Source of the DNA: Emticicia oligotrophica DSM 17448
GTDB taxonomy: Bacteria > Bacteroidota > Bacteroidia > Cytophagales > Spirosomataceae
Reading direction: 5' to 3'
DNA: 38,576 nucleotides
Assembly: GCF_000263195.1 (NCBI RefSeq)
Contig: NC_018744.1
Location: forward strand, 1-38,576
This document shows, one piece after another, positions 1-37,955 of the stretch. Below the pieces are notes generated by a model. The model was not told where the DNA came from, ran no database searches, and saw only the letters and a list, made by a program, of their open reading frames with translations. The position numbers and the translations under genes are program-made. How positions within the stretch are numbered: position 1 is the stretch's first letter; every line of letters starts with the position of its first letter.

Positions 1-193
1 TCACACGTTTATCCCTAATTTGGGAACAATCATAACTTCATCTATTGATTAGAGTGAAAGTGATAAAATAAAAACTTTTAAGCTATTAATCATATAGATC
101 ACTACTAAATCCATACGTTTGATTAAATACTGAAAATGTATTTAAAAAAACCTTTTTGTTGGAAGAAAGTACGTTAATCTATTGAAAAAAGCT

Positions 194-8401: not shown

Positions 8402-8420
8402 TTAGACATTGATTGTAAAT

Positions 8421-17728: not shown

Positions 17729-17810
17729 TGGTTTTTTGATGAAAAAATTAGAGTTATCTAGTTAAAAATTAAGTTATTGTTGGACGAAGTTTGCAACCTC
17801 AACCAGAAAT

Positions 17811-19811
17811 TCAGATTTCAAAATGCAAAGTCAGCCATAAACTACGACCTACGCCATTGATTCCTGAGCCGTGTGTGCGGTAATCTTTATTTGTAAGGTT
17901 TTGAGCAGAAAGATTGATATTCAACCATTTATATTCGTATCCTCCGTAAATATTCACAATTTGCCAAGCGGCTGTTCCATTTTTACCGATCCGATTATCG
18001 TCTTTGTCTCCTTGTGCAAGACGTTCTTGCTTGGAAGCAAACAACAGTTCGGGACGAATAAAAAAGCTATTTTTGCGAAATTCTAAACCCAAACGACCAT
18101 TGAGTGGCGGAATACGTCGCATCGGTTCATTTTTCGTAATATTTTGTCCATAGGTGTATGAAATGCCGCCGTAGGTTTTCAAGTCTTTGCTCATTAGTGC
18201 TTCAAACTCAGCTTCGATGCCTTTGATGTAAGCTTTTTCGATATTTTCTTTTCGATAAACACTGTATGTATTAATTACTTGATTGGGTACTTTTACTCTG
18301 GCAATTAAATCACGCAAATCGCTGTAATAAAAAGCAGTAGCCGCCGAAAAACGATTACTTCTAAATTTGTACCCTATTTCATAATTATTCGATTTTTCGG
18401 GTTTCAAATTATTTGTGGGCAACTCATATCGAAAATCTACGATGCCAAGCGTACCTAAATCATCGACATTTGGCGTGCGAAAACCTGCATTGTATGAGGC
18501 ATAAATATTTGATTTTGAACCAATTAAATAAGAAATTGAAAAATTTTTTACGAGTGTTTGTGGTGTTAAGTTTGTTTTACCGATAGTTTCATCGGGAACA
18601 ATAATCGAAAAACCATTATAACGAAGACCAGCCGAAAACTGCCAATGATTTTGTATAAACTGATGTAAAGAATAAAGTGAATAATTTAAAAAAGTAGAAT
18701 TATCGGGGTAGAGACCACGCAAATTTTTTGGTGCTTCTGAAGAAGTAATAGAAGCGGGTCTATCTACTTTCGAGCTTCTTACCAAATCATGGTAAATTTC
18801 AATGCCAGAATTAACCGTCCATTTCTCCGAAAATTCAGAGAAAATATTAGTAGTCAACCCTTTGGTATAAACTTTATCGGTTTCTTGAATCAACCTTGTT
18901 GAACCATTCTTTTGGCTATTCCTACCTTCATAAGTCATTTGTAATGAGCCAATTAATGAAACTTCATTAAAGATTTTTGAATTGTTTTTTTGGTTAAACT
19001 TCGCATAAGAAAGATTTCGTCTTTGAAGTTGAAATTCATTAATTGCAAAATTTTCCAGTACTACTTTATGATAGACGGGTACATCTTTTGCTTCAAAATA
19101 TTGGTTTGCTAACACCAAAATTCCCTTTCCGAGTTTCAGTTTGGCTTTGAAATTCCCCATTTGTTCGTCATAACCTGAAGGTGATTGGCGGCCCGTGAGT
19201 TTTCCACCAACTAAATCACCAAAATTTCGATAACCAAAACTTGCGGAAACCGCTAACTTTTCACCTCCATAATTTATTTCACCACGAGCGGTTTGCTCCA
19301 TACCTTGAGTAGCGATTCTACCTAGGAAATTACCTTTCCATTTTGTATTAAATTCAGGTTCGGCCGTGAATATTTGGATAGTTCCACCCAAAGCATCAGA
19401 ACCGTATTGCACCGAACCACCCCCTTTCAATACTTCAATTTTACTAATCGAAAATGGGTCTATTGTATTAAAATACTGGTTAGGGCCGTAGCGAAAGGTG
19501 CTGTTGCTAAGGCGAATCCCATCAACCATCAATAAAGTTTGATTTCCTGTAAGCCCACGCACGAAAGGAGAACCGCCCCCATGATTGGTTTTCTGCACAA
19601 AAACACCATTTATTCCAATCAATGCTTCAGGAGTTGTTCTAGATGCATACGTTTTAAGGTATTTTTTATTCAGAATCTTGATGTTATTAGGTGTTTGAAA
19701 CTCTTGATTTGCCGAACGACTTGCGGTAATAACAACTTCATTCAGAAGTTCGGTTTTGGTTGAATCGGTCGATGGATTTAACAAACCCAAATACATTAAA
19801 AGTAATTTCAT
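17811..19811 (-). CDS. TonB-dependent outer-membrane receptor (BtuB/heme-receptor-like)
   Basis: This 666-residue outer-membrane receptor has a plug domain (about residues 30-145) with EVVITASRS as the TonB-box region, FVRGLTGNQTLLMVDGIRLSN, and KIEVLKGGGSVQYGSDALGG. A 22-strand barrel follows, ending in an aromatic C-terminus (SLWLTLHFEI), as expected for outer-membrane insertion. It lacks the carboxypeptidase-like N-terminal domain and the SusC features. The ATG at 19811 (MKLLLMYLG, signal peptide) is preferred over the longer frame beginning at 19838. It precedes the propeller-phosphoesterase gene and is probably co-transcribed with it. The transported substrate is unknown; a product of that esterase is an inference. 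Confidence 0.92.
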   Translation of the reverse strand: MKLLLMYLGLLNPSTDSTKTELLNEVVITASRSANQEFQTPNNIKILNKKYLKTYASRTTPEALIGINGVFVQKTNHGGGSPFVRGLTGNQTLLMVDGIRLSNSTFRYGPNQYFNTIDPFSISKIEVLKGGGSVQYGSDALGGTIQIFTAEPEFNTKWKGNFLGRIATQGMEQTARGEINYGGEKLAVSASFGYRNFGDLVGGKLTGRQSPSGYDEQMGNFKAKLKLGKGILVLANQYFEAKDVPVYHKVVLENFAINEFQLQRRNLSYAKFNQKNNSKIFNEVSLIGSLQMTYEGRNSQKNGSTRLIQETDKVYTKGLTTNIFSEFSEKWTVNSGIEIYHDLVRSSKVDRPASITSSEAPKNLRGLYPDNSTFLNYSLYSLHQFIQNHWQFSAGLRYNGFSIIVPDETIGKTNLTPQTLVKNFSISYLIGSKSNIYASYNAGFRTPNVDDLGTLGIVDFRYELPTNNLKPEKSNNYEIGYKFRSNRFSAATAFYYSDLRDLIARVKVPNQVINTYSVYRKENIEKAYIKGIEAEFEALMSKDLKTYGGISYTYGQNITKNEPMRRIPPLNGRLGLEFRKNSFFIRPELLFASKQERLAQGDKDDNRIGKNGTAAWQIVNIYGGYEYKWLNINLSAQNLTNKDYRTHGSGINGVGRSLWLTLHFEI

Positions 19812-20146
19812 AAAGTTGATGTATCGTTTACTACTCAATTAATCATTATACCTTATTTTAGGTACATTATGATGACAAGATACGAAGAGCATATTAGTTT
19901 TGGTTATAACTAAATTTTATTTTTATTAGCAAAAACACTGTCTTACTTTTGGAAATAATGAATATAATTTGGTAAGAGAAGGATCATGGCTAAAAATATA
20001 TTTGAAGCAGGAATTCCTATTTAAAATAATCATAAGAATAAAATTAGAGGGTTAGGGGTATTCGAATTAAAAGCAAAAAGCAAATGTAGAAATGTCAGAT
20101 AAATTGTGAGTTAAAAAATTGTGATTGTATTGTTATGAATCTGTAA
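19812..20146. other. Intergenic region upstream of the TonB receptor
   Basis: An imperfect inverted repeat, TACCT-TATTTT-AGGTA, lies about 40 bases upstream of the receptor start and might be an operator. I recognise nothing else here. Confidence 0.35.
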
Positions 20147-22124: not shown

Positions 22125-22931
22125 ATGAATAAAATATTAAATCAACCTTATCAGCTTTCTGAGGAAGCCATTGAATTTTATCAGAAAAACCGTTATATTA
22201 AATTAAAAAATGTTTTAGATGCTGAAACCTTAGCTTATTACGGTGAAGCCATCACAAAAAAAGTAAACGAATTAAATAGCCAGGATAAACCAATTGATGA
22301 ACGTGATACTTATGGAAAAGCGTTTTTACAAATTTTTAATCTTTGGTGTCAAGATGAAGTATGCAAAGAATTTGTGTTGAGTAAGCGATTAGGCCAAATT
22401 GCAGCTGAGTTAATGCGTGCAGATGGTTCAAGACTTTACCACGACCAAGCTTTATTCAAAGAAGCAGGTGGTGGCATTACCCCTTGGCACGCTGACCAGT
22501 ATTACTGGCCTTTATCAACGGATAAGACTATTACGGCTTGGATTCCACTGCAGCCAGTTCCTGTTGAAATGGGACCTCTGGAGTTTAGTGCCGGAAGTCA
22601 TGTGATTGTAGAGGGGCGAGAATTAGCAATTAGTGATGATAGCGAGCAAAAAATAGCCCAACGTTTACGTGTAACTGATTTTAAGCATGTTGCAGAACCT
22701 TATGATTTGGGGGAAGTTAGTTTTCATTCAGGTTGGGTGTTTCATAGAGCAGGAGCGAATAATACCGACCAAGTGCGTAAGGTAATGACCATGATTTATA
22801 TGGATAAGGATATGATTTTGAAAGAACCCGAAAATGAAAATCAAAGAAAAGATTGGGAAGTATGGTGTCCTGGGGCTGAAATTGGGAAAATTATTGATAC
22901 GCATTTAAATCCAATTGTATATTCAAAATGA
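22125..22931 (+). CDS. Phytanoyl-CoA dioxygenase (PhyH) family Fe(II)/2-oxoglutarate oxygenase
   Basis: This 268-residue enzyme has the intact facial triad H122 / D124 (PWHADQYYWP) and H207 (WVFHRAG), plus R218 for the 2-oxoglutarate carboxylate. Further family markers are GPLEFSAGSHV and LGEVSFHSGW. Such enzymes hydroxylate, or through hydroxylation demethylate or dealkylate, small substrates. Its stop overlaps the dehydrogenase start by four bases (ATGA), so the product is probably passed to that enzyme. The substrate is unknown, and length and motifs do not favour phytanoyl-CoA itself. Confidence 0.9.
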   Translation: MNKILNQPYQLSEEAIEFYQKNRYIKLKNVLDAETLAYYGEAITKKVNELNSQDKPIDERDTYGKAFLQIFNLWCQDEVCKEFVLSKRLGQIAAELMRADGSRLYHDQALFKEAGGGITPWHADQYYWPLSTDKTITAWIPLQPVPVEMGPLEFSAGSHVIVEGRELAISDDSEQKIAQRLRVTDFKHVAEPYDLGEVSFHSGWVFHRAGANNTDQVRKVMTMIYMDKDMILKEPENENQRKDWEVWCPGAEIGKIIDTHLNPIVYSK

Positions 22932-24034
22932 TAACTTGTAAAGCGGCAATTGCCGATGGAAATGGCTGTTTTTCCATCGAAAATATTATGGTAGATGAAC
23001 CTATCGGTGATGAGGTATTGGTTCAAATAAAAGCGGCAGGTGTTTGTCATACTGACTGGGACTCTCAATCTTGGAAAAAACCACTTGTGATGGGGCATGA
23101 AGGAGCTGGCGTGGTTGTTAAGGTTGGAGAAAGAGTAAAATCATTAAAGGTTGGCGATAAAGTAATGCTTAATTGGGCGATTCCTTGCTATGAATGTTTT
23201 CAGTGTCAAGAAGGAAATCAGCATATATGTGAGCGTAATTCTGCGGTGATTGCTGGAAACAAAGTAAGCGAAGGCCATGCAAAGTTTGATTCAACAACTT
23301 TTCAAGGTAAGCCAATCGAACGGGCATTTAGTTTAGGAACAATGTCAGAATATACCTTAGTCAGAGAAGCGGCTTGCGTTAAAATTAATGTCGAAATTCC
23401 GTTTACTTCTGCCGCAATTGTAGGTTGTGGCGTGATGACTGGTTATGGCTCAGTTGTGAATGCTGCTAAAGTACAAGCAGGAAGCTCGGTTGTGGTATTA
23501 GGTACTGGTGGCGTGGGTCTAAATGTCATACAAGGGGCAAGAATTGTTGGTGCAGGCAAAATTATTGCGATTGATGTAAACCCAAATCGTTTGGAAATGG
23601 CAAAGGAATATGGTGCAACGCATACTATCTTGGCTAATAGAGATGATAAAGGTTTAATGGAAGCATCAAAGATAGTAAAGCAAATGACAGGTGGCCGTGG
23701 TGCAGATTACGCTTTTGAATGTACCGCCATTCCAGAATTAGGAGCAGCTCCTTTAGCAATGGTGCGTAATGCTGGTATGGCCGTACAAGTCAGTGGAATC
23801 GAGCAAGAAATATCAATAGATATGAATCTTTTTGAGTGGGATAAAATTTATATTAATCCTCTTTATGGCAAAACACGTCCTCAAATAGATTTTCCAATTT
23901 TGCAAAATCTTTATGCAAAAGGTGATTTGATTTTAGACCAAATGGTAACACGAACCTATAAACTTGAAGAGCTCGCAGATGCTTTTGCTGATATGCATGC
24001 AGGAAAAAATGCCAAAGGTGTAATAGCGTTTTAG
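22928..24034 (+). CDS. Zinc-dependent alcohol dehydrogenase (MDR, class III-like)
   Basis: This 368-residue cytosolic dehydrogenase has catalytic zinc ligands C40 (AGVCHTDW), H57-E58 (MGHEGAG) and a Cys in VGCGVMTG. The structural zinc site is complete (C87, C90, C93, C101). The Rossmann motif is GTGGVGLNVIQGA, followed by an Asp (AIDVN) that favours NAD over NADP. Segment order and the GCGV / IAF C-terminal signature place it near the class III (formaldehyde/S-hydroxymethyl-thiol) dehydrogenases. It overlaps the dioxygenase gene by four bases and is followed by an esterase, so it likely oxidises the alcohol or aldehyde produced by the dioxygenase. Confidence 0.93.
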   Translation: MITCKAAIADGNGCFSIENIMVDEPIGDEVLVQIKAAGVCHTDWDSQSWKKPLVMGHEGAGVVVKVGERVKSLKVGDKVMLNWAIPCYECFQCQEGNQHICERNSAVIAGNKVSEGHAKFDSTTFQGKPIERAFSLGTMSEYTLVREAACVKINVEIPFTSAAIVGCGVMTGYGSVVNAAKVQAGSSVVVLGTGGVGLNVIQGARIVGAGKIIAIDVNPNRLEMAKEYGATHTILANRDDKGLMEASKIVKQMTGGRGADYAFECTAIPELGAAPLAMVRNAGMAVQVSGIEQEISIDMNLFEWDKIYINPLYGKTRPQIDFPILQNLYAKGDLILDQMVTRTYKLEELADAFADMHAGKNAKGVIAF

Positions 24035-24131
24035 ATTGAATAATCGTATTTAATGATTGAACCTTAAAATAGAAAGTCTGCGATTATTTTAAATGAATAA
24101 AATGGTCTAAAAGGAAAGTAAATTTTATCCA

Positions 24132-24935
24132 ATGAGCAAATCACAATTTTTTAAAACTGAAATCGCTGAATTTCAAGGGCTTCATTTTATTACTGTAAAA
24201 AGTAATGCTCTGAAAAAAAGGGCTGATATTACGGTGTATAATGGATGTAAAAATTATAAAAATCTAAAATCAGTCCCTTTAGTTATTTTACTTCATGGTG
24301 TTTATGGGAGTCATTGGGCTTGGGCTCTTAAAGGTAGAGTTCATGAAACCTTACAGAAATTAATTAATGAAAAGCAAGTTTCTCCGATGATACTTGCCAT
24401 GCCCTCTGATGGCCTATTTAGCGATGGAAGTGGGTATGTTCCTCATCAATTAGAAGACTACGAAAAATGGATAGTTGAAGATGTTATAGATGTGATGAAG
24501 GAGCAGTTTACTCAGATTGATGAGCAATCTCCAATTTTTATTACTGGTCTTTCGATGGGTGGTTTTGGAGCTCTAAGGATTGGTGCTAAATATCCAAAAC
24601 TATTTAAAGGATTTTCTGGACTTTCTTCTATAACAAACTTTCAGCAACTTGAATTATTTTTAGAAGACTTTGAGCAGTTGAAAATGGCCGCCATTACTCA
24701 AGAAAGCGTTTTAGAGTGGATGATTGCTAATCGTGAAATACTACCCCCGTTTCGCTTTGATTGTGGTAGAGATGATTTATTGATAGATTATAATAGAGAA
24801 TTACGTTCAGCGTTGAAAAAAAATAAAATTAATCATCAATACCAAGAATTTAGCGGTGGACACACGTGGTCATATTGGGAAAAACATATAGCTAAGACTT
24901 TGATTTATTTTAATGAACTGGCTAATGAAAGTTAA
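24132..24935 (+). CDS. Alpha/beta-hydrolase, putative esterase (PF00756-like)
   Basis: This is a 267-residue hydrolase of the esterase D / S-formylthiol hydrolase type. The oxyanion-hole loop is LLHGVYGSHWAW and the nucleophile is S141 in GLSMGGFGAL. An Asp in FDCGRDDLLID and a His in FSGGHTWSYW complete the triad. There is no signal peptide, so it is cytoplasmic. It lies 97 bases after the dehydrogenase in the same direction. The pairing of a class III-like dehydrogenase with this esterase family recalls the two-step oxidation of formaldehyde as a thiol adduct, but a sugar-ester or lactone substrate is equally possible. Confidence 0.88.
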   Translation: MSKSQFFKTEIAEFQGLHFITVKSNALKKRADITVYNGCKNYKNLKSVPLVILLHGVYGSHWAWALKGRVHETLQKLINEKQVSPMILAMPSDGLFSDGSGYVPHQLEDYEKWIVEDVIDVMKEQFTQIDEQSPIFITGLSMGGFGALRIGAKYPKLFKGFSGLSSITNFQQLELFLEDFEQLKMAAITQESVLEWMIANREILPPFRFDCGRDDLLIDYNRELRSALKKNKINHQYQEFSGGHTWSYWEKHIAKTLIYFNELANES

Positions 24936-25836: not shown

Positions 25837-26991
25837 TCAACTTCCAACTTCATGAGAACTTTTTAATTTTTTCATTAATTTACCAAGTAAAATACCCTGT
25901 TTTTCAACTAAATCTAAAGTTTCAACAATTGCCTTTTCTAATGTCATTGGCGACTTTAAAATTGAAGTTGCGTACATAACATTTGGCTGTTGGGCAATTT
26001 TTTCAACATCTTGTAGTGTTCCACAAATAGCGATTACAGGTACTTGATAGTTGGAGGCCAAGTTCAATAATCTCGAAATCAATTTGCCTTCCCAAGTCTG
26101 GCTATCTATTTTACCCTCCCCAGTTATCAAAATTTGACTTTCAGAAATATGTTTTTCTATATCATTGAGTTTTATTATCCAATCTGCTGCCGAAATAATT
26201 TTAGCTCCAAATAATGCAGCAACTCCTCCACCAATTCCACCGCCAGCACCACTTCCGGTAATATTTTGTGGGTTTATTTGGGTATGTTTTTCCAATACTG
26301 ATGCATAGTTTTTTAATCCACTATCTAAAAGCAAAACACTTTCTTCATCGGCTCCCTTTTGTCGGGAAAATACATGTGCAGCACCTTTCTGTCCATAAAA
26401 TGGATTTTCGACATCGGTTGCAATAATAAAAGACACTTTATTTCGATTGAAAACTAATTCACTATCGTCAATTTTGTGAATATACCTGAGGTTTTGACCA
26501 ATGGGTAATAAACTCTCGCCATCCTTATCAAAGTACCTAACACCTAATGCCGAAGCAATGCCAATAGCCGCATCATTAGTTGCAGTTCCACCTACGGTGA
26601 GCACAATTTCTGTAGCTCCTTTTTCGATTGCATCTCGAATTAATATGCCCGTTCCAATACTACTTGTGAGCATACAATTCCGATTTTCAGGTTTTATTAA
26701 TTCAATACCAGATGCCCTTGCTGTTTCAATTACAGCCATTTTTTTCTCTGGAAGCAAAAGATATTTTGCTTCTATTGGATTAAAAAAAGGATCCTGTGTT
26801 AAACAAGAAATCCATTGGGCATTAAGAGCCAAACTGATGCTTTCGAGTGTACCTTCTCCTCCATCTGCCAATGGTTTTAAGGTACAAACCGCTTCAGGAA
26901 AAGTTGATTTTATTCCTTTTTCCAAAGCAATACAGATATCTGCTGCGGTTGCGGCATCTTTAAATTTATCTGGAGAAATTAAGATTTTCAT
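25837..26991 (-). CDS. glxK: Glycerate 2-kinase
   Basis: This 384-residue kinase belongs to the GlxK/GarK glycerate kinase family, which phosphorylates D-glycerate (usually to 2-phosphoglycerate) for entry into lower glycolysis. Family signatures are the N-terminal MKILISPDKFKDAATA, PLADGGEGTLES, TVGGTATNDAAIGIASALG, GSGAGGGIGGGVAALFGA and LITGEGKIDSQTWEGK. Length is normal for the family. It is the last gene of a minus-strand operon, nine bases after a sodium:solute symporter and behind a GH63-type hydrolase. The glycerate is therefore probably released inside the cell from a glycerate glycoside. Confidence 0.95.
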   Translation of the reverse strand: MKILISPDKFKDAATAADICIALEKGIKSTFPEAVCTLKPLADGGEGTLESISLALNAQWISCLTQDPFFNPIEAKYLLLPEKKMAVIETARASGIELIKPENRNCMLTSSIGTGILIRDAIEKGATEIVLTVGGTATNDAAIGIASALGVRYFDKDGESLLPIGQNLRYIHKIDDSELVFNRNKVSFIIATDVENPFYGQKGAAHVFSRQKGADEESVLLLDSGLKNYASVLEKHTQINPQNITGSGAGGGIGGGVAALFGAKIISAADWIIKLNDIEKHISESQILITGEGKIDSQTWEGKLISRLLNLASNYQVPVIAICGTLQDVEKIAQQPNVMYATSILKSPMTLEKAIVETLDLVEKQGILLGKLMKKLKSSHEVGS

Positions 26992-27000
26992 CTAAAATTA

Positions 27001-28563
27001 TTATTGAAATAGATTACTGAGGTTTAAACAAAGAATTATTATAAAGATGAAAAATAAGAGTAAGATTAAAATATTCCTTTTGTCTATTTCTAATTTAACT
27101 TTAAAAATTTCACTTTTTTGGTCTGTTGAAACATAAACCATACTTGCTAAAAGTGCCACTATAATCGTAACAAAAGCCCCAACGATATTCCACCAAAACC
27201 AAAAAATTTGTGGGACAAAAATCCAAAGAAACATATTAACCAATACCCCAGCCAAGAGCCCAATATTCATGGCTTTACCATTAACTCTTGAAATTAGTAC
27301 TGCCACCAAAAATGTAGCCAGCATAGGGCCGTAAAATACAGAACCAATTTTATTAATGGCCTCGATGACAGTTTTAGCAATACTACCTACAAAAAAGCTG
27401 AATCCCAAAGTTGCAGCACCCCAAATAACTGTTGTCAATTTACTGTAAAAGACATATTTACTGTCATCAAAACCATTTCTTTTACTGATTATTTCTTCCA
27501 TTGAGACAGCACTGAGTGAATTAAGAATAGAACTATAGGCAGACATTGCCGCTGCGATGATGGCAACTACCAATACACCTATCACACCATTCGGCAAATA
27601 ATGCTCAATAAATATTGGAATCATCAAATCCGTTTTCCCTGCTGGAATTAAAGACATAAAATGTTGGTTTTGCAAGGCAAATGTTCCTAAAATTAAGCCT
27701 CCGATACAGTAACTAAGTGTAATTGGAAATCGAAGTAAACCATTGGCGAGTAAAATATTTTTAAGTGTAGGAACATCTTTTGCGGATATTATGCGTTGGG
27801 CTTGCATTTGGTCAGTGCCATAATAGGAAGTATAAAGAAAAATACCACCTAACAACATTGGGAAAAATCCGTATTCATCACCATTGATTCCAAAGTTGGA
27901 AAAGTCTATCACATGAAGTCGACTTTGGTCAACATGTTTTATAAGTTCTCCCCAACCTCCCATATTTTTTAACCCAAAATATACAATGATAAAAATACCA
28001 GTTACTTTAATTATCATTTGCACAACCTCGCTATAAACGATGGCTTTCATACCTCCCTCAAATGAATAAACGATAGTTGAAACCCCAACAATCAATAAGG
28101 TCATATTGAATGACAAATGTAAAAGCGATGCTAAAATTAGAGAAACAGCATACACAGTTACGGCTCCAGCAAACGACCTACTGAATAAAAAAACTGATGA
28201 AAGTATAAGCCTTGTGCTTGCACCAAATCTTTTTTCTAAAAAAGAATAAATACTCACAACTCCACTTCGGTAAAGAATTGGGCCAATAAAAGTCATAACC
28301 AATATCATAGCAATGGGGACACCCAGCTCGAAAGTGAGCCATTTCATTCCTCCACCTACACGTAAGCCAACAAAAGCAGGTGCCGAAACAAAGCTAATAA
28401 CTGATAACTGAGATGCCATTGCTGACATCGTCAGTGAAAACCAACCAAAATTCTTGCCCCCCAAAAAATAGTCTTTTGAATTTTCTTGTTTTTTAAGGTA
28501 ATAACCCAATACTAACATACCGATTATATAGGCGGCTATGATCGTGTAATCGAGGTAATTCAT
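27001..28563 (-). CDS. Sodium:solute symporter (SSS/SLC5 family)
   Basis: This 520-residue inner-membrane transporter has about 13-14 hydrophobic helices. Family features include YYLKKQENSKDYFLGGKNFGWFSLTMSAMASQLS (written here as its two halves QENSKDYFLGG and WFSLTMSAMASQLS in practice), the FEGGMKAIVYSE loop, YYGTDQMQAQR and AAAMSAYSSILNSLSAV. Members of this subfamily import sugars, sugar acids or related solutes with sodium. It lies 24 bases after the hydrolase and nine bases before glycerate kinase, so it is the likely inner-membrane uptake step for the glycerate glycoside. It could also import free glycerate. Confidence 0.93.
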   Translation of the reverse strand: MNYLDYTIIAAYIIGMLVLGYYLKKQENSKDYFLGGKNFGWFSLTMSAMASQLSVISFVSAPAFVGLRVGGGMKWLTFELGVPIAMILVMTFIGPILYRSGVVSIYSFLEKRFGASTRLILSSVFLFSRSFAGAVTVYAVSLILASLLHLSFNMTLLIVGVSTIVYSFEGGMKAIVYSEVVQMIIKVTGIFIIVYFGLKNMGGWGELIKHVDQSRLHVIDFSNFGINGDEYGFFPMLLGGIFLYTSYYGTDQMQAQRIISAKDVPTLKNILLANGLLRFPITLSYCIGGLILGTFALQNQHFMSLIPAGKTDLMIPIFIEHYLPNGVIGVLVVAIIAAAMSAYSSILNSLSAVSMEEIISKRNGFDDSKYVFYSKLTTVIWGAATLGFSFFVGSIAKTVIEAINKIGSVFYGPMLATFLVAVLISRVNGKAMNIGLLAGVLVNMFLWIFVPQIFWFWWNIVGAFVTIIVALLASMVYVSTDQKSEIFKVKLEIDKRNILILLLFFIFIIILCLNLSNLFQ

Positions 28564-28587
28564 ATATTAAATTGTTTTGGATGGATT

Positions 28588-29916
28588 CTATTCCATAATG
28601 AGTAATAATATGGCGGCAGTCCAAGAAAAGTCTTCGCCCCCATATCCTATTTTAAATTCTTCTGATTTAATTGGACTGAAATACTCATAAAACCCTTTTT
28701 TCACTGATAATTCAATGATATCGTTTCTGAGTTTTTCAGCAATTTCTAAAAATCCATACTGTTTAAAACCAATCGCTAAAAGCCAGTTTATATGCGGCCA
28801 AATGGGACCTCTCCAATAACGAACTGGGTCGAATGCGGAAGAAGAATATCCTAAACTTGGACAAAGGTATCCATCTAAATTTTCGCCTAAAAAGTGTTTG
28901 CTTAGAATTAATTCTGCCATTTTATTAGCTCTTTCTTCAGAAGCAATTCCAGCGAAAAGTGGAGCAAAACCCATAGCCGTTGGTTCTGAAATTTGAACAT
29001 TATTTTTTAAATCAAAATAGGTATATTGCCCTAAAACATCATCAAAAAGTTTTGTGTTGATGCCATGGGCCGTTTTAGCGTACCATTCATCAAACTGTAC
29101 AGATAATTCGGGTAAATCTAATGCATTTGATAATCTTGAAAGGCACTGATTTGATTTGGCTAAAATGCTATTGAAAAGTGGATCTTGAATCAAAAATGGC
29201 AAAATTTCGTACATTTTTTGTTCATCATAACCACAATTTCTCGACAACTCTATCAGATTCATGTAATAATTGTAATCTTTCTTAGTTGGCCTTTGCGATT
29301 GGTCAACATGCAAGGTATCCTTTCGGACAAAATCATACGTTGGTGCACTATACCTTGCCCAAACACTATCCCACACGGCACAATTATCAGTACCCGATTC
29401 CCAATTATGGCGAATATAAACCAGCCCTTCGTTTTTGGGATCTCTATTTTGATATAAATATTGATGAAAACGAAAAACTGATTTTACTGCTGAACGATAA
29501 AAATCAAGATATTTTTGTTTGTCAATTTCGTTTTCAAATAAGAATTCCAAGACAAATCCCAATACAGGGGGTTGTGTCATTCCTGTAGTTTTCACATGCT
29601 TTGGCGATAAATCACTGGCCTCTGAGCCATGAAATTTAGCATCGGGGAAATATTGTTTTTCTGGCGAGTCATTATGAAAAATAATATGTGGAATCATACC
29701 ATTTTCCCACTGAGCACCAAATAATGTTTCGAGTTCAAGTCGTGCTTTATATTTGTCAATCAAAGACCAACCCATTGACACAAAACCTGAGTCCCAAAGC
29801 CATTGGAAAGGATATAAATTAGCAGATGGTACAGTAAAACCTTCTCTCCAATTCTTTTTTAAGGTCACTATACTTCTTTCTCTTAAAGATTCAATTGCTG
29901 AATGATTGAAATTCAT
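28588..29916 (-). CDS. GH63-type glycoside hydrolase, mannosylglycerate/glucosylglycerate hydrolase-like
   Basis: This 442-residue protein has the (alpha/alpha)6-barrel layout of the small bacterial GH63 enzymes. Matching segments are YPFQWLWDSGFVSMGWSL, LFGAQWENGMIPHIIFH and the catalytic loop HNWESGTDNCAVWD (general acid region, D177). The C-terminal part has YWRGPIWPHINWLLAIGF and GGEDFSWTAAILLL. There is no signal peptide, so it acts in the cytoplasm. Size and motifs match mannosylglycerate and glucosylglycerate hydrolases, which split the glycoside into hexose and glycerate. The symporter and glycerate kinase directly downstream support this substrate class strongly. Trehalase or another small alpha-glucoside activity is the alternative. 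Confidence 0.85.
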   Translation of the reverse strand: MNFNHSAIESLRERSIVTLKKNWREGFTVPSANLYPFQWLWDSGFVSMGWSLIDKYKARLELETLFGAQWENGMIPHIIFHNDSPEKQYFPDAKFHGSEASDLSPKHVKTTGMTQPPVLGFVLEFLFENEIDKQKYLDFYRSAVKSVFRFHQYLYQNRDPKNEGLVYIRHNWESGTDNCAVWDSVWARYSAPTYDFVRKDTLHVDQSQRPTKKDYNYYMNLIELSRNCGYDEQKMYEILPFLIQDPLFNSILAKSNQCLSRLSNALDLPELSVQFDEWYAKTAHGINTKLFDDVLGQYTYFDLKNNVQISEPTAMGFAPLFAGIASEERANKMAELILSKHFLGENLDGYLCPSLGYSSSAFDPVRYWRGPIWPHINWLLAIGFKQYGFLEIAEKLRNDIIELSVKKGFYEYFSPIKSEEFKIGYGGEDFSWTAAILLLIME

Positions 29917-29977
29917 ATTATTATATTATTGTAAATTGATAAAATTGAAGGACAATTTACATTTTTTACCAAAGTAT

Positions 29978-30022
29978 TTCCCCTTCCAAATGCCAATTCT
30001 ACCTTATAGTTTGGAAGGGGAA
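29978..30022. promoter_or_regulatory. 13-bp-stem hairpin between the TonB receptor and hydrolase genes
   Basis: TTCCCCTTCCAAA (29978-29990) pairs perfectly with TTTGGAAGGGGAA (30010-30022) across a 19-base loop. On the operon's strand it follows the receptor stop codon by 12 bases. No U-tract follows, so a role in mRNA stabilisation or partial termination fits better than complete termination. Confidence 0.55.
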
Positions 30023-30034
30023 TATATTTATTTA

Positions 30035-32758
30035 CTAAAATTTAAACAGAATATAGGTTGTCAATCTTCTTGGAAGAATGGGTCTTGCATTATAGAATGG
30101 GTCGTTTGTAATGACAGATGTATCAGCTACACGAGGGTCGCCTTCTGTAAGTCCACGATTGTTCAGTGCATTATAAACATTTAATCCTACTTTGATTGAT
30201 TCTTTAGCTCCAACTTTAAATGATTTACCCGCTCTAAGATTAAGTATCGCATAAGCTGGTAAAACCACATTATTTTGGTCATCGGCATATCTTTTACCTT
30301 CTTGATTAACCAAAAATCCTAAATCCCAACCTTTTTTATCATAGCTCAATCCAATATTGAATATAGTTTTAGGTTGACGCAAAACCCAGTTCCCTTTATA
30401 ATCTGTAATCACATCATCATCTGTACCGAGTTTACCGTCAGCACCAGAAGTGGTTCTTTTAAAATCAACGTATTCATGATCTTGTAATGTGGCATTCACA
30501 TCAGCAATCAAACCATCTACTAATTTTACTGCAGCCGTTATTTCCACACCTTTGGTAGTAGTTAAACCAACTGGACGAGTTATTTCGCGTAATACACCAT
30601 CAGCACCAGCGATGATTTCGTTCTGCAATCTATTTTTGATATTATTGTAATATAAAGCCATAGTACCAGAGATACGTGGAGAACTATATTTTGCACCAAT
30701 CTCATATTGATAAACGGCTTCGTTTTTCTCGGGAACTACCTGAATAAATTCACCCTTTCCATCTCTATTCACATTTGAAAATGTACGTAGTTCAGGGAAG
30801 TAGTAACCTTTAGATAATGAACCATAAAGGTTAAGGGAATTATTAACACTATAGTTTGCACCTAAAACATAACCAAAATCATCTACTGTAAATTTCCTTG
30901 TAAATACTTTACCTGTTTGCCAACGATAAGAGGCATCCGCAGTATTGGTAGCCGCTGGGTTGGTATATGCTGCCGTTTCTCCAACGGTTACAATGCCCTT
31001 TTGTACTTCATATCTAAGCCCAGCATCAATTCTTAATTTACCAAAAACCATTTCATCACCCGCATAAAATGCCATTCTATTTGCCTCGAAAGTATTGTTA
31101 GTACGTCCTGCAACGTTTTGACGAAAACCTCCCTTGGTGTAGCGTGTGGTAACATTATTAGCATCTATGATTGATAAATCTACCAGACGTGGCATATTTT
31201 TCATTTCTAATAGAACACCAGTTCCAACCTCATCTTGAAGTTGTGAAGTGCTTGATCCGTAAGTACCAAAAGTTAAGTTATGTTCAGAATTGTTTGATTT
31301 AATTTGCTTTGTAATTCGTAAATCTGTTGATAAATCTTTCATAGGGCGATTTCTTAGCGTAATACTTGCTTCAGAAACGTATGTCTTACCGTTATTTGCT
31401 CCGTTTGAGAGTGCCATTGGTAATCCATTATCGGCATAGTTGAAAGTATAAGACTTTAAGTTTGCATTTCTTGCTTTTGCGTAGGTTTCAATCTCGAAAG
31501 TTCTACCCGGTGACCAAAAATCAAAAGTATGGTTGAAACTTGACAATCGAGTTTTGGATTTCACATCCCAACCTCCAAATTGTTTAGCAAATTCAAGCAT
31601 GGTTGAAACACCTTTTGCCGTCACCCCATTGCCCAAGTTACCTTGTATTGTACCGAGTGGATTAACCAATGAAAAAACACCCATTTGCGGGGAATATAAA
31701 GACTGTACGACTTGACCATCATTTCCAGTTGCCGCTTGAACTGTATTTTCGTTAGCTTTTTCTTGTTTTACATGTGGAACTGGCAAATAGAATTGTGCCC
31801 CATCGTCTAAACTACGTACGTACAGACGAACATACCCATTGTCTAACTGTCGTGTGATATTGGCTCTTATTTGGTACCCCTTTGAATTAGCTCCTGTCAG
31901 TAAAGGGCCTTCATCATAACGTGCAAAACCACTTATGTTGTATTGCCATTTGTCGCCTGCAGAACCACCTGTATTAAAGTCAACACGGTAAAGGCTGAAC
32001 TGACCAGTACTTAATTTTACGATTGATTCGCCTTCGCCACCACCTTTTTTAGAAATATAATTGAAAACACCAACTGGCGAGCCATTACCAAATAAAGTTG
32101 ATGAACCTCCTCGTGCAAATTCAAAATTTCCTACTCCTAAATCTGGGCGAAAGAATACATCCTGTGCCGATGAAGTCAGATAGCCTGTTGCTTGTACGGG
32201 CATACCGTCTTCTTCAATGGGTGTATATTTGTATTGACCGCCAGATGGTAAGCCTCTCACCATGATATTTGAAGCTACTTCTCCTCCGCCACCTTCTGCA
32301 TGAACACCTGGAATTACTCTAATAATATCCGCCATTGAATTGGCATTAATTGCTTGGATTTGTTTGGAATTTAGTTGCGAAAGAGAGGCTGTCATTTCTT
32401 TTTGGGTACGGGTAGTATTTGTACCTGTTACTACAACTTGATCAAGGTTGAAAGCATCTTCCTCAAGAACATAATTCTTCTCAATCGTAGCATTGTTAAG
32501 CTCTATTGTTTCCGTTTTAGTTTTATACCCGATGTAGCTGATCAAAATTGTGGTTTTACCTGTGCCTTCAATTTTAAGTTTATAGTTTCCTTCCATATCA
32601 GTTAATGCTCCAATTTTTGAGCCTTTCAGAGCCACAGTAACTCCAACGAGTGCCTCGCCAGATTTGTCTTTGATGGCCCCATAAAGTAGTGTCTGTGCCA
32701 TTACATTCTGTCCTATTAGAAAGGAAAGTAAAATGGTCGAAAATAGTTTTAATTTCAT
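30035..32758 (-). CDS. TonB-dependent receptor with carboxypeptidase-like N-terminal domain
   Basis: This is a 907-residue outer-membrane receptor. A signal peptide (MKLKLFSTILLSFLIGQNVMAQ) is followed by a CarboxypepD_reg-like domain (about residues 24-105, GAIKDKSGEALVGVTVALKGS). A plug follows, with LDQVVVTGTNTTRTQKE, IPGVHAEGGGGEVASNIMVRG and FARGGSSTLFGNGSPVGVFNYI. The barrel ends in TTYILFKF. It is shorter than SusC proteins and has no SusD partner, so a small substrate is more likely than a polysaccharide. It is the first gene of the operon containing the GH63-type hydrolase, symporter and glycerate kinase, with a divergent LacI regulator upstream. It is therefore the probable outer-membrane entry route. 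Confidence 0.92.
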   Translation of the reverse strand: MKLKLFSTILLSFLIGQNVMAQTLLYGAIKDKSGEALVGVTVALKGSKIGALTDMEGNYKLKIEGTGKTTILISYIGYKTKTETIELNNATIEKNYVLEEDAFNLDQVVVTGTNTTRTQKEMTASLSQLNSKQIQAINANSMADIIRVIPGVHAEGGGGEVASNIMVRGLPSGGQYKYTPIEEDGMPVQATGYLTSSAQDVFFRPDLGVGNFEFARGGSSTLFGNGSPVGVFNYISKKGGGEGESIVKLSTGQFSLYRVDFNTGGSAGDKWQYNISGFARYDEGPLLTGANSKGYQIRANITRQLDNGYVRLYVRSLDDGAQFYLPVPHVKQEKANENTVQAATGNDGQVVQSLYSPQMGVFSLVNPLGTIQGNLGNGVTAKGVSTMLEFAKQFGGWDVKSKTRLSSFNHTFDFWSPGRTFEIETYAKARNANLKSYTFNYADNGLPMALSNGANNGKTYVSEASITLRNRPMKDLSTDLRITKQIKSNNSEHNLTFGTYGSSTSQLQDEVGTGVLLEMKNMPRLVDLSIIDANNVTTRYTKGGFRQNVAGRTNNTFEANRMAFYAGDEMVFGKLRIDAGLRYEVQKGIVTVGETAAYTNPAATNTADASYRWQTGKVFTRKFTVDDFGYVLGANYSVNNSLNLYGSLSKGYYFPELRTFSNVNRDGKGEFIQVVPEKNEAVYQYEIGAKYSSPRISGTMALYYNNIKNRLQNEIIAGADGVLREITRPVGLTTTKGVEITAAVKLVDGLIADVNATLQDHEYVDFKRTTSGADGKLGTDDDVITDYKGNWVLRQPKTIFNIGLSYDKKGWDLGFLVNQEGKRYADDQNNVVLPAYAILNLRAGKSFKVGAKESIKVGLNVYNALNNRGLTEGDPRVADTSVITNDPFYNARPILPRRLTTYILFKF

Positions 32759-32812
32759 AAGACTTTAATTAGATTAGTATAATTATAATTTGAAATAATT
32801 GTATTATTGCTA

Positions 32813-32820
32813 CAAAATTA
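32813..32820 (-). promoter_or_regulatory. -7 element of the TonB receptor operon
   Basis: On the minus strand this reads TAATTTTG, a full match to TAnnTTTG, about 55 bases upstream of the receptor ATG. The -33 region is not obvious. Confidence 0.4.
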
Positions 32821-32892
32821 TTTTATACATTTACAGAAAAAAAGTATTTTAAAATATTTAAAATGTTGATAATCAATTATTTACAATGCAAC

Positions 32893-32911
32893 CGTTTACG
32901 TAAACGTTTAC
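32893..32911. promoter_or_regulatory. LacI-family operator: two overlapping palindromes
   Basis: CGTTTACGTAAACG (32893-32906) and GTAAACGTTTAC (32900-32911) are both perfect palindromes and share seven bases. The second has the central CG step and TAAACGTTTA core typical of LacI-family operators. It ends 16 bases before the lacI-type ATG. The overlap may let two dimers compete or bind opposite faces. Confidence 0.75.
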
Positions 32912-32927
32912 ATAAAAAAGAATTTTC

Positions 32928-33974
32928 ATGAAAAAAGGAAGAGTAAAACTTAAAGACATTGCCGAGAAACTAAATATTTCTACTGCTACTGTTTCAAGAG
33001 CCTTAAGAAATAGGATAGAAATTGGAGCAGAAATGCGTGAAAAAGTGAAGGCTGTGGCAAAAGAAATGCATTATCAACCTAACTTTATGGCTTCTCATTT
33101 GCGTTCACAAAGAAATTTTGCTATTGGTGTAGTTATACCCAAAGTTAATCATCAATATATGGCATCAATGATTAATGGAATTTTGGAGGAAGCAACGGAC
33201 AATAATTTCCAAGTTATTATCAATGTAACTGAGCACTCTTACGAAAAGGAAGTAAAAGCTATAGAAATGTTTTCAAGTGGGATAGTAGATGGGCTTTTGA
33301 TTTGTGTGAGTAATCAAACCAAGTATATTTCACATATTGAGCAACTTCAACAAAACAATATTCCTTTCGTTTTTTTTGATAAAGATATACCTAAGATTGA
33401 TGCCCCGAAAGTAGTCGTAGATGATTTTACAGGGGCTTTTGTGGCTGTTGAGCATTTAATTCAACAAGGGTTTAGAAATATTGCTCATTTACAAGACAAT
33501 TTAGTAAATCATGGCTCTCAAAAGCGATTAAAAGGGTATTATTCAGCTTTGAAGAAATACGGAATAGTGAAAAATGAGAATTTCGTTATGCAAATACCCA
33601 ATATTTCAATTGGAGAGGGTCGAATTGCCACTGAAAACTTACTACGGACATATCCAAATATTGATGCTATTTTTGGAATTACAGATGAACTTGCAGTTGG
33701 AGCAATTCAGGCAGCTAAAAATTTAGGAAGGAAAATCCCAGAGGATTTTGGGGTAGTTGGATTTAGTAATTGGCAAATTTCTTCAGTAGTGAACCCAACA
33801 CTGAGTACTGTTTCTCAACCAGGTAATGAAATGGGCAAGATTGCCACTAAATTATTAATTCAAAGAATAGAAGACCCTGAAAAATACTATGAAAAAAAAC
33901 CAATAAAAATTTTAAAAACACAATTATTGGTAAGAGAATCTTCTTCAAGACTTAAAAACTGCCTAAATTATTAA
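32928..33974 (+). CDS. LacI-family transcriptional regulator
   Basis: This is a 348-residue regulator. The N-terminal headpiece is KLKDIAEKLNISTATVSRALRN with the hinge helix YQPNFMASHLRSQ (residues 8-60). A periplasmic-binding-like effector domain follows (AIGVVIPKVNHQYMASMINGILEEA, VVVDDFTGAFVAVEHLIQQGFRNIAHL, FGITDELAVGAIQAAKNLG). It is divergent from the TonB receptor operon, with a LacI-type palindrome immediately upstream of its own start. It probably controls both units, with the glycoside or a product as inducer. Confidence 0.95.
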   Translation: MKKGRVKLKDIAEKLNISTATVSRALRNRIEIGAEMREKVKAVAKEMHYQPNFMASHLRSQRNFAIGVVIPKVNHQYMASMINGILEEATDNNFQVIINVTEHSYEKEVKAIEMFSSGIVDGLLICVSNQTKYISHIEQLQQNNIPFVFFDKDIPKIDAPKVVVDDFTGAFVAVEHLIQQGFRNIAHLQDNLVNHGSQKRLKGYYSALKKYGIVKNENFVMQIPNISIGEGRIATENLLRTYPNIDAIFGITDELAVGAIQAAKNLGRKIPEDFGVVGFSNWQISSVVNPTLSTVSQPGNEMGKIATKLLIQRIEDPEKYYEKKPIKILKTQLLVRESSSRLKNCLNY

Positions 33975-34238: not shown

Positions 34239-35843
34239 TTAATCTTTAGTTGTTTTACTTTTCCACCAATCTTTATTTGGTTGATAGTCTGAACTTAAGA
34301 AATGGAGGCGTTCTTTTTCAAGTTTTGGCATCAGTATTTCCGAGTTGTTTTTGAGCTTTTTATTAGCTAAATCGGCATTAAATTCAGGGTCTTGCACAGG
34401 ATATTGAGCGTTAACACTTTTTAACCACGTCAATAGCTTTGTATTTAACTTTGAGGCTTTTTGTGGTTCTTTAGATGCTAAATCTTTTTGCTCGTATGGG
34501 TCATTAGCTAAATTATAAAGTTCATAATGTCCATCTTCCCAATAGTGAATTAATTTTAAGTTCCCACTTCTAATAATGGAATTCGGTTGGCCTCCTTGAT
34601 TACCATAATGCGGATAATGCCAGAATAGGTCTCTTGTTTTTAATTCTTTACCATCAAATAGGGGTTTGAGGCTAATTCCATCAATATGCTGTTTAGGCAT
34701 GAGGGGAATTCCAGCGAAATCTAAAATTGTTGGGAAAAAATCTGCCCCTGTAACTGGATAATTAAGTTCCTTGATTTGTGGTAACCAAGGTATTTTGATA
34801 AAATAAGGTTCTCTAATACCCCCTTCCCACTGATACCCTTTTCCCCCTCGAAAGGGTAAATTTGTTGTAGAAAAGGCATCTCCAGAGGCTACACCTCCAT
34901 TATCTGAAGTAAAGACTATTATGGTTTGCTGCTCAAGATTTAGCTTTTTGATCGTATTTAAAACTTCTCCAACAGCATCATCCATGCTTTCAACCAAACC
35001 GCCATAAATAGGATTATCTTGTACTTGCCTAATGGGCAGTTCATGCTCCATTGTATATCCATGAGGTAGAATTCCATTTTTTTCTGCTTTATCTTTGTAT
35101 TTTTTCCACTTTTCTTGCGTAGTTTCTATGGGACTATGCACGGCGTAGAAAGATAAAAAGGCAAAAAAAGGTGAATCTCGTTCTTGTTGAATAAATGCCG
35201 ATGTTTCTTTTGCAAGTCTCATAGAAAGGTCTTCTCCATTTCTTTGATTAGGTAATGAAGGGTTTTCCCAAGGTGAGAAATATCCTCCTTTGGGGCTTCC
35301 AGATTCCCAACCACCTTTATTTATATTAAATCCATGGTCTTCAGGATAATCGCCTTTGTTTCCTAAATGCCATTTACCCGCAAAAAATGTTTTATATCCA
35401 TTGGCTTGTAAAACTTCTGCAATGGTTTGTTCGGTTTTAGGTAAATTTTCTACATACCCAGCGGGTAAAAGTTTTGAAAACCTTTTTTCACTACGCCATG
35501 CTATGCCTGATTTTGCACCTATCCAATCTGTAATTCCGTGTCTTGCTGTAAATTTACCAGTCATGATACTTGCTCTTGATGGACTACAAACAGCACTGCA
35601 CGCATACCCTTGGGTAAAGATCGTCCCTTCTTTAGCAATTTTATCAATATTGGGAGTTTCGTAGAAACTACTTCCTAAGCAACTCAAATCTTTTATACCT
35701 AAATCATCAACTAAAATAAAAATAATATTAGGCTTTTTGGGGTTTTGAGGCAAATCTTCAATGGCAAGAGTTGAAAGTGAAGAAGCTATCAGTGTAAACC
35801 AACAAATAAAAAACCTTAGTTCTGAATTTTTAAAAGATTTCAT
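34239..35843 (-). CDS. Secreted S1-family sulfatase
   Basis: This 534-residue enzyme belongs to the formylglycine-dependent (S1) sulfatases. It has a hydrophobic N-terminal export signal (FFICWFTLIASSLSTLA), metal ligands D46-D47 (FILVDDLGI), and the CSPSR motif at C86-R90, whose Cys is converted to formylglycine. The usual GKWHLG, VFTSDNGG and HYPHYGNQGG segments follow. It removes sulfate esters, probably from algal glycans, in the periplasm or at the surface. It is convergent with the LacI gene and has no partner genes close by. No sulfatase-maturation enzyme is present in the window, so one must be encoded elsewhere. Confidence 0.93.
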   Translation of the reverse strand: MKSFKNSELRFFICWFTLIASSLSTLAIEDLPQNPKKPNIIFILVDDLGIKDLSCLGSSFYETPNIDKIAKEGTIFTQGYACSAVCSPSRASIMTGKFTARHGITDWIGAKSGIAWRSEKRFSKLLPAGYVENLPKTEQTIAEVLQANGYKTFFAGKWHLGNKGDYPEDHGFNINKGGWESGSPKGGYFSPWENPSLPNQRNGEDLSMRLAKETSAFIQQERDSPFFAFLSFYAVHSPIETTQEKWKKYKDKAEKNGILPHGYTMEHELPIRQVQDNPIYGGLVESMDDAVGEVLNTIKKLNLEQQTIIVFTSDNGGVASGDAFSTTNLPFRGGKGYQWEGGIREPYFIKIPWLPQIKELNYPVTGADFFPTILDFAGIPLMPKQHIDGISLKPLFDGKELKTRDLFWHYPHYGNQGGQPNSIIRSGNLKLIHYWEDGHYELYNLANDPYEQKDLASKEPQKASKLNTKLLTWLKSVNAQYPVQDPEFNADLANKKLKNNSEILMPKLEKERLHFLSSDYQPNKDWWKSKTTKD

Positions 35844-36405: not shown

Positions 36406-37955
36406 TTAATGGCTATCTCGCTTAGCTTTTTCTTTTATCTGGCTGATTTTCAATGACATTTCTTTTAATAAGTTGGGTTGTTGACTACTTAAATCGTTTC
36501 TTTCGCCATTATCAACTTTTACATTATACAATTGAGGACTGTGTTTGAAACCACCTTCTACACCTTTATTAGCCATAAAATTAGGTAAGTTAGCATTAGA
36601 AGGAAATGGCTCAATGTATTTCCATTCATCTTTTCTAAGAGAGAAAGTATATGATTCTTCAAGCAAATATTCCCTTCCTTTTTCTGTTTTGCCAAGGAAT
36701 GTATTGATGAGATTTTCACTATCAATGGCCTCATTATCAGCTAAAGGCTGATTCAAAAGAGCAGCAATAGAAGCATAAAAATCTACTTGGCTTACCAATG
36801 CGTTACTAACCTTTGGTTTGATTGTTTTATTCCATCGTATGATTGTTGGAACCCTTGTCCCGCCTTCGTAGGCACTATATTTACCTCCTCTGAATGGTCC
36901 GGCGGGTTTGTGATTACCCAGTAATTCTACCGCTTTGTCATCGTATCCATCGTTTAGTACTGGGCCATTATCACTCGTAAAAATTATGAGCGTATTTTCG
37001 TCGAGACCTAACTTTTTTATTTCATTCATTACTTCACCCGTAATCCAATCCATTTGTGCGATGACATCTCCACGAGGCCCCATACTACTAGCACCAACAA
37101 ATTTTTTATTTGGTAATCTTGGTACATGGATATCATGGTAGGAAAAAAAGAGAAAGAAAGGTTTGTTTTTGTCTCATTAATGAATTTTTTGGCTTTGCCT
37201 GTCAGAATATTCGGGAATTCTTCATCTACCCAAAGAGCTTGTTCACCACCTTTCATATAACCGATTCGGCTGACCCCATTGACAATAGTATTACTGTGTT
37301 GTTTATCAGCTTTTTGTTTTAATAATTCTGGGTTATCAATGCCGTTAGGATACCCGTCGAGTTTTAACTCATAGTTTACCTCAATCGGATTTTTGGAATC
37401 TGCATTAACTACACGTTGATTTTCTACATAAATGGTAGGGACTCTATCGCCAGTGGCTGGAATCAGAAAACTGTAGTCAAAGCCAATTTCCAATGGTCCT
37501 GGCTTAATATCTCCATTCCAATTAATTTTACCATCACCAAGACCTAAATGCCATTTCCCGACTACTCCTGTGGCATATCCAGCTTTTTTAAGCATGCTTG
37601 GTAGCGTATGGCTACCCGGTTTTATAAGCAGAGGTGCATCGCCTGGTAAAATAGCTGCTTTATTTCTAAAGGCATATTGGCCTGTAAGAAATGAATATCT
37701 CGAAGGTGTACATGTAGCGGCGGTGCTATGTCCATCCGTAAAAGAAATGCCTTCTCTAGCCATTCTGTCAACAGTGGGTGTTTTTACCCCTTTAGCACCG
37801 TTAAAACCAATGTCACCATATCCTAAATCATCAATATAGAATACTACGATGTTAGGCTTTTTGATTGGAGGTATTTTTGTCTTTTGAGGAATTATAAAAG
37901 CTCCAGTCATAATAAATATAACAAAAGCAACTGATACAACTTTAGCGTATTTCAT
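36406..37955 (-). pseudogene. S1-family sulfatase interrupted by a one-base frameshift
   Basis: Two frames together make one sulfatase of about 516 residues. The 5' part has a signal peptide, D42-D43 (FYIDDLGYG), the formylglycine motif CTPSR (C82-R86) and GKWHLGLGDG. The 3' part resumes with FFLFFSYHDIHVPR, then MDWITGEVMNEIKKLGLDE, IIFTSDNGPV and a normal C-terminus. The join falls at the run of five A residues on the coding strand (37166-37170): one more A restores ETK-NKPFFLFF. In frame, translation instead runs on for about 43 unrelated residues. Both halves are otherwise undamaged, which suggests a very recent mutation, a sequencing error in a homopolymer, or a slippage site. Confidence 0.85.

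Follow-up and report, generated by a model that had tools for sequence, protein, structure and literature searches.

We analysed a stretch of 38,576 bases from Emticicia oligotrophica DSM 17448 (the window), which is the whole of contig C3 (NC_018744.1) in a 5.22-Mb assembly of six contigs, and found that five adjacent genes in it probably form a catabolic operon under LacI control. Its substrate would be mannosylglycerate (digeneaside), and glucosylglycerate is a likely second one. A sequence-only reading of this DNA had named the genes as a TonB-dependent receptor, a glycoside hydrolase of family GH63, a sodium symporter, a glycerate kinase and a divergent LacI-family regulator. All five open reading frames (ORFs) are intact, and the Pfam and NCBIfam models agree with these names (Table 1). 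The intergenic gaps are 9, 24 and 118 bases long and the divergent gap between the receptor and LacI genes measures 169 bases, an arrangement that looks like a single operon with its own regulator.

The gene content and order, their conservation, the active-site residues and the recurring palindrome are observed features; the substrate, the direction of transport, the regulation and the individual reactions we infer as follows. The glycoside, which is small and anionic, would cross the outer membrane through the TonB-dependent receptor and the inner membrane through the sodium symporter, after which the cytoplasmic GH63 enzyme would cleave it, with inversion, into a hexose (mainly mannose) and D-glycerate. 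Glycerate kinase would phosphorylate the glycerate, which would then enter lower glycolysis. Mannose would reach fructose-6-phosphate in two steps, phosphorylation by a ROK-type kinase and isomerisation, which would fall to chromosomal genes in this strain and to genes of the same run in some relatives.

The hydrolase is, as judged from its sequence, of the mannosylglycerate hydrolase (MgH) type. Searches of solved chains with phmmer gave 316 bits for Thermus MgH (2z07/4wva-c) and 212 bits for the glucosylglycerate hydrolase (GgH) of Mycolicibacterium hassiacum (MhGgH; 5ohc), and the GgH equivalog model NF047898 scored the enzyme at 322.8 bits, short of its cut-off of 550. We aligned the window enzyme, 32 Bacteroidota sequences and six other references at the 22 active-site positions of MhGgH that are named in the available excerpt of PMC6608630. 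The window enzyme was identical to MhGgH at 19 of the 22 positions and to Thermus MgH at 20, and 15 of the MhGgH residues were invariant in all 32 Bacteroidota sequences, including the catalytic Asp and Glu, Tyr36, Trp40, Tyr88, Arg216, Tyr222 and Tyr375. By this residue map, D177 and E411 are the predicted catalytic acid and base of the window enzyme, and the equivalents of the glycerate-binding residues (roles as given in PMC6608630, excerpt) are retained as Y35, W39, Y89, R209, Y215 and Y367. The position of Gln434, which touches the hexose in MhGgH (PMC6608630, excerpt), is occupied by Phe in the window enzyme, in all 32 Bacteroidota sequences and in all six other references. The MgH enzymes of Thermus and Selaginella have similar efficiencies on mannosylglycerate and glucosylglycerate (PMC6608630, excerpt). 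Judged by its active site alone, the window enzyme would therefore be expected to act on both glycosides.

A structural model of the hydrolase, obtained with AlphaFold from 13 relatives (pLDDT 87.9), had Thermus MgH (4wvc) as its top Foldseek match, with 38% identity and TM-scores of 0.88 when normalised to the query and 0.94 when normalised to the target. The fold does not tell MgH from GgH; it is the sequence that leans towards MgH. In a tree of 40 sequences, unrooted with a midpoint root and holding a single GgH reference, the window enzyme grouped with 31 other Bacteroidota sequences and Rubrobacter radiotolerans MgH (support 98/96); Thermus MgH fell in the group next to this one, and a very long branch led to MhGgH. 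The assignment to the mannosyl/glucosylglycerate hydrolases made in the sequence-only reading is thus supported, both by this phylogeny, which it had proposed and which groups the enzyme with a characterised MgH, and by the retained catalytic and glycerate-binding residues. Its statement that the enzyme has no signal peptide agrees with the N-terminus MNFNHSAIESLRERS, in which no leader is visible by eye, a signal-peptide program not having been applied; the receptor, again by eye, begins with a hydrophobic leader.

Which sugar the glycoside carries is indicated by genes that accompany the operon in other genomes. The named loci were the best 80 of 571 confirmed matches, with close relatives over-represented, and two duplicate loci (L058 and L119) were left out of the counts over 98 and 84 loci and retained in those of the palindrome and of ORFs across whole loci. 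A gene for mannose-6-phosphate isomerase (PMI) lies directly after the glycerate kinase gene, on the same strand and with gaps of -20 to 28 bases, in 12 of the 84 distinct loci where the next gene could be read, and no further PMI-like ORFs were found elsewhere in the loci. All four of the PMI genes that were scanned exceed the TIGR00218 cut-off of 116 (148-173 bits), and the other eight are 64-77% identical to those four. The PMI-bearing loci belong to seven genera and require ten parsimony changes on the hydrolase tree. The ROK kinase gene of E. aquatica overlaps the glycerate kinase gene by 4 bases and has as its best model PRK09557 'fructokinase' (246 bits, under the cut-off of 443), which we take to represent E. 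coli Mak, a manno(fructo)kinase; another relative (L039) has a ROK gene between its symporter and glycerate kinase genes. As PMI serves the use of mannose and is not needed for that of glucose, its presence beside the operon is the best evidence for mannosylglycerate, and points to this solute over glucosylglycerate. This sharpens the sequence-only reading, which had named either substrate, towards mannosylglycerate.

It is rather unlikely that the same operon serves mainly for glucosylglycerate derived from cyanobacteria or other bacteria, with mannosylglycerate as a side substrate. Such a role would agree with the acceptance of both glycosides by MgH-type enzymes (PMC6608630, excerpt), with the detection of glucosylglycerate in cyanobacterial consortia (available excerpt of PMC3985010) and with the lack of PMI in the window and most relatives. 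However, the twelve relatives join the operon to an isomerase that would be superfluous for glucose, and the enzyme is nearer in sequence to MgH than to MhGgH, reaching 323 of the 550 bits set for NF047898.

Comparison of the gene order across Bacteroidota, as suggested in the sequence-only reading, covered 98 distinct related loci besides that of the window, with close relatives over-represented. The five genes keep their order and orientation in 67 of them, of which sixty are assigned to Flavobacteriaceae, six to a family of the same class that bears only a code, and one to E. aquatica. This frequency argues that the arrangement is not due to chance. At an E-value of 1e-40, and counting the own genome, the hydrolase had matches in 4 of 222 genomes of the family; even draws of 390 genomes from the order and 395 from the phylum gave 6 and 19 matching genomes, respectively. 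The phylum draw is less biased, and 13 of its 18 matches other than the own genome were seen in context: all five genes were present in six, receptor, hydrolase and symporter in two, hydrolase and symporter in one, and the hydrolase alone in four. Altogether 26 other genomes matched at this threshold, and contexts were taken for 20 of them (without G207, G540, G562, G581, G589 and G682), five of which had the GH63 gene without other operon genes. Of the 11 genomes of the genus, the own one among them, 9 matched at an E-value of 0.001, with a full-length relative only in the own genome and in E. aquatica (62%) and partial matches of 25-31% in the other seven. The locus of E. aquatica CECT 8858 is on NZ_CAKLPY010000005.1, and its LacI copy, at the same place, is 76% identical.

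Variants of the arrangement were also seen. Four order-level relatives (L040, L042, L043 and L044) have hydrolase, symporter and glycerate kinase genes without a TonB receptor or LacI gene, and one of them (L040) has WYL-regulator and GyrI-like genes upstream. A GNAT acetyltransferase gene lies between the hydrolase and symporter genes in 18 of the 98 distinct loci (e.g. L052:8379-8981, minus strand), a distribution that takes 11 parsimony changes on the tree of the hydrolase. Outside the phylum, ABC transporters adjoin the hydrolase in four of five plasmid loci. On plasmid pDEIPE02 of Deinococcus peraridilitoris (L144), the hydrolase gene is followed by genes for a ROK protein and for a DUF4147/MOFRL protein, presumably of a glycerate kinase type; on a plasmid of the marine Rhodobacteraceae SC52 (L143) it is followed by a D-lyxose/D-mannose isomerase gene. 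The extra genes of these two loci, which we count in favour of mannosylglycerate, would fit the same products as those of the Bacteroidota operon.

The receptor gene adjoins the hydrolase gene in 74 of the 98 loci. When the window receptor was compared with ten other genomes, its best match in all ten was the gene adjacent to that of the hydrolase (464 to 1391 bits), with the next best at 279 bits or less; the ten genomes were preselected for a hydrolase-adjacent receptor, so this result speaks to the best match and not to the frequency of presence. It supports co-inheritance of the receptor with the hydrolase. TonB receptors are mostly for larger or scarce ligands, although some bacteria use such receptors for unmodified maltose or sucrose. 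A larger or modified glycerate glycoside as the true substrate, for example one that is acylated or carries a further sugar, would explain the presence of the receptor, and the GNAT gene of some loci would suit it. We consider this improbable, as the window has no GNAT gene, the operon has no secreted or second hydrolase, and the active sites of MhGgH and Thermus MgH are closed and capped to fit a small substrate (PMC6608630, excerpt).

The solute is probably taken from outside and not self-made, because neither MpgS (PF09488; Thermus control positive) nor a GpgS over cut-off (16 weak matches, the best at 59 of 262 bits) was found in the own genome. A PF00535 scan of the same genome returned 33 generic glycosyltransferases and was uninformative. 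The receptor and symporter of the operon make uptake from outside its likely role. That the hydrolase recycles a self-made compatible solute, as in mycobacteria, is very improbable: this is the role of MhGgH (PMC6608630, excerpt) and would suit the relatives with a solitary GH63 gene, but the operon includes two transporters and neither of the two synthesis genes was found over cut-off in the genome, other synthesis routes not having been searched. An activity as trehalase or as some other disaccharide glucosidase, with glycerate kinase beside the hydrolase by chance, is scarcely credible and was rejected, since PF01204 (53 bits) and PF03200 (26 bits) do exceed their cut-offs in the hydrolase but PF22422 reaches 268 bits, trehalase (36 bits) and YgjK (30 bits) fall far behind Thermus MgH in phmmer and behind MgH in the Foldseek ranking too, the glycerate-binding residues are invariant, and glycerate kinase is kept, with the other four genes, in 67 of the 98 loci.

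The gap between the receptor and LacI genes contains two overlapping palindromes around AAACGTTT, with a joint span of 32891-32914. This exact core occurs in 54 of 72 LacI-receptor gaps (window and two duplicate loci included), at a density of 4.6 per kb, compared with 0.073 per kb in the remainder of these loci; it was not found in the receptor-LacI gap of E. aquatica. A natural reading is that the palindrome would be the operator of the adjacent LacI protein. The sequence GYAAACGTTTRC occurs at two places in the own genome (the operon and C5:97369) and its reversed control at one, so that a wider regulon is not shown, genome-wide rarity alone being no proof. Scans for sigma-70-type promoters and terminators gave matches at shuffle level only.

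Several observations weigh against a mannosylglycerate operon as proposed here. Marine red algae are the main known source of digeneaside, whereas Emticicia is not marine by its species names. The solute is small enough for porins and the need for a TonB receptor is not obvious; moreover, an adjacent receptor is missing in 24 of the 98 loci, some of them at contig ends. The MgH-like active site leaves the sugar unsettled, Thermus MgH acting about equally on both glycosides (PMC6608630, excerpt), and MhGgH, at 30% identity, has a slightly higher query-normalised TM-score than Thermus MgH (0.91 vs 0.88). PMI is absent in 72 of the 84 loci, and the window has neither a PMI nor a ROK gene. The sequence-only reading had called the route complete, which does not hold: with hexose kinase and isomerase genes missing from the window, its final step is a presumed one. 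The region downstream of the window glycerate kinase gene, where E. aquatica has its ROK gene, gave only chance-level matches to ROK or PMI remnants. The own genome contains five ROK genes, as well as a second glycerate kinase gene on the large contig (C5:4795538-4796638). Taken together, the operon is real and conserved, and mannosylglycerate is the best-supported candidate for its substrate.

Genes for the degradation of the same predicted substrate have been described. The idea is therefore not as new as the sequence-only reading supposed: Maribacter dokdonensis has digeneaside degradation genes with homology to ones that Barbeyron et al. (2016) ascribed to Zobellia galactanivorans (available excerpt of PMC8072126), and digeneaside is among the possible substrates of polysaccharide utilisation loci (PULs) in North Sea Flavobacteriia (available excerpt of PMC6298971). 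Zobellia uliginosa (L119/L046) has the identical five-gene order, and its locus is probably the kind of cluster meant in these papers. The Emticicia operon, likened to these clusters by predicted substrate and not by gene lists in the excerpts, differs in belonging to Cytophagales and in lying on a probable plasmid. It is a probably plasmid-borne, non-flavobacterial addition to a predicted kind, at a small distance from known systems. The MgH enzymes of Thermus thermophilus and R. radiotolerans (GH63, EC 3.2.1.170) share enzyme type, fold and active site with the window enzyme; their genes have no TonB or SSF neighbours, an MFS transporter lying near the R. radiotolerans gene, which is on a plasmid, and an ABC transporter near a Meiothermus homologue. 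MhGgH resembles the window enzyme in fold and catalytic pair, but has Gln434 in place of Phe, is distant in the tree and recycles an internal solute. The Mng system of E. coli also serves mannosylglycerate use; unlike the operon, it relies on phosphotransferase uptake (MngA) and on a GH38 enzyme acting on the phosphorylated glycoside (MngB), and no genes are shared. Like SusC/SusD PULs, the operon combines a TonB receptor, a glycoside hydrolase and a regulator, but it has no exported hydrolase, no SusD gene lies between or beside the five genes (the neighbours being an esterase and a sulfatase gene), and the receptor scores 100.6 bits on the SusC/RagA model TIGR04056, under the cut-off of 368. 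A SusC/SusD polysaccharide locus was therefore rejected, in keeping with the earlier description of a receptor without a SusD partner. A literature search that mostly did not extend to subscription journals turned up no published assay of the receptor or the hydrolase of any such locus in Bacteroidota.

The window very probably represents a plasmid, given its Rep3 replication initiator and ParA partition ATPase, and the operon is thus probably plasmid-borne in this Emticicia, whose type strain we take to carry several plasmids. No near match to positions 14000-38576 was found in a plasmid collection. The closest solved structure to the glycerate kinase is 3cwc, 'Putative glycerate kinase 2' (219 bits). 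The top solved matches of the symporter are a sodium/iodide cotransporter, the sodium:solute symporter 5nv9, and monocarboxylate and multivitamin transporters, with sodium/glucose cotransporters ranking lower.

Table 1. Positions of the operon genes, palindromes and other features in the window.
Feature	Position	Strand	Basis or remark
ParA partition ATPase	5887-6843		family search
Rep3 replication initiator	8409-9815		family search
Putative esterase	24132-24935	+	neighbour beyond glycerate kinase
Glycerate kinase, GlxK/GarK-type	25837..26991	-	PF02595 392 bits; TIGR00045 389 bits (cut-off 168)
Sodium:solute symporter (SSF), predicted inner-membrane importer	27001..28563	-	PF00474 114 bits
GH63/MGH1-like hydrolase, mannosylglycerate-hydrolase type	28588..29916	-	PF22422 268 bits (cut-off 27)
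TonB-dependent receptor, predicted outer-membrane importer	30035..32758	-	plug and barrel domains: PF00593, PF07715, PF13715
Second imperfect palindrome	32891-32908		overlaps the first
Palindrome TACGTAAACGTTTACATA, predicted LacI operator	32897..32914		core AAACGTTT
LacI-family regulator, divergent	32928..33974	+	PF00356 and PF13377
Intact sulfatase	34239-35843		neighbour beyond LacI gene

Other regions of the window have features of their own. Genes for a PhyH-type dioxygenase and a zinc alcohol dehydrogenase (4-base overlap) form, together with the putative esterase gene, a second small catabolic run beside the operon (22125-24935, plus strand). Two sulfatase-like ORFs at 36406-37955 on the minus strand (37029-37955 and 36406-37083) overlap in different frames and represent either a frameshifted gene or a sequence error; they adjoin the intact sulfatase gene of Table 1. 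A second TonB-dependent receptor of 675 amino acids adjoins a beta-propeller/phosphoesterase protein of 916 amino acids (14978-19838, minus strand). The protein of 1646 amino acids encoded at 182-5122 on the plus strand appears by eye to be a multi-PAS sensor histidine kinase.

The analysis adds to the earlier predictions the breadth of the five-gene order, the common palindrome, the co-inherited receptor and the PMI link; with the five genes conserved, the palindrome shared and PMI adjacent, what was a guess from annotation becomes a pathway that can be tested and whose sugar is named. If the proposal is true, mannosylglycerate, a solute of red algae and some bacteria, would be a carbon source with dedicated import and breakdown in many marine Bacteroidota and in Emticicia. 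We put at about even the chance that the receptor and its co-inherited relatives form a dedicated family of outer-membrane transporters for this small anionic compatible solute and that this family, joined by a symporter, hydrolase, kinases and mannose-6-phosphate isomerase of its own, constitutes a widespread, plasmid-mobile route by which Bacteroidota, including those of freshwater, eat an algal or microbial osmolyte. The TonB receptor family would then gain a proposed ligand of ~270 Da, far below typical polysaccharide fragments.

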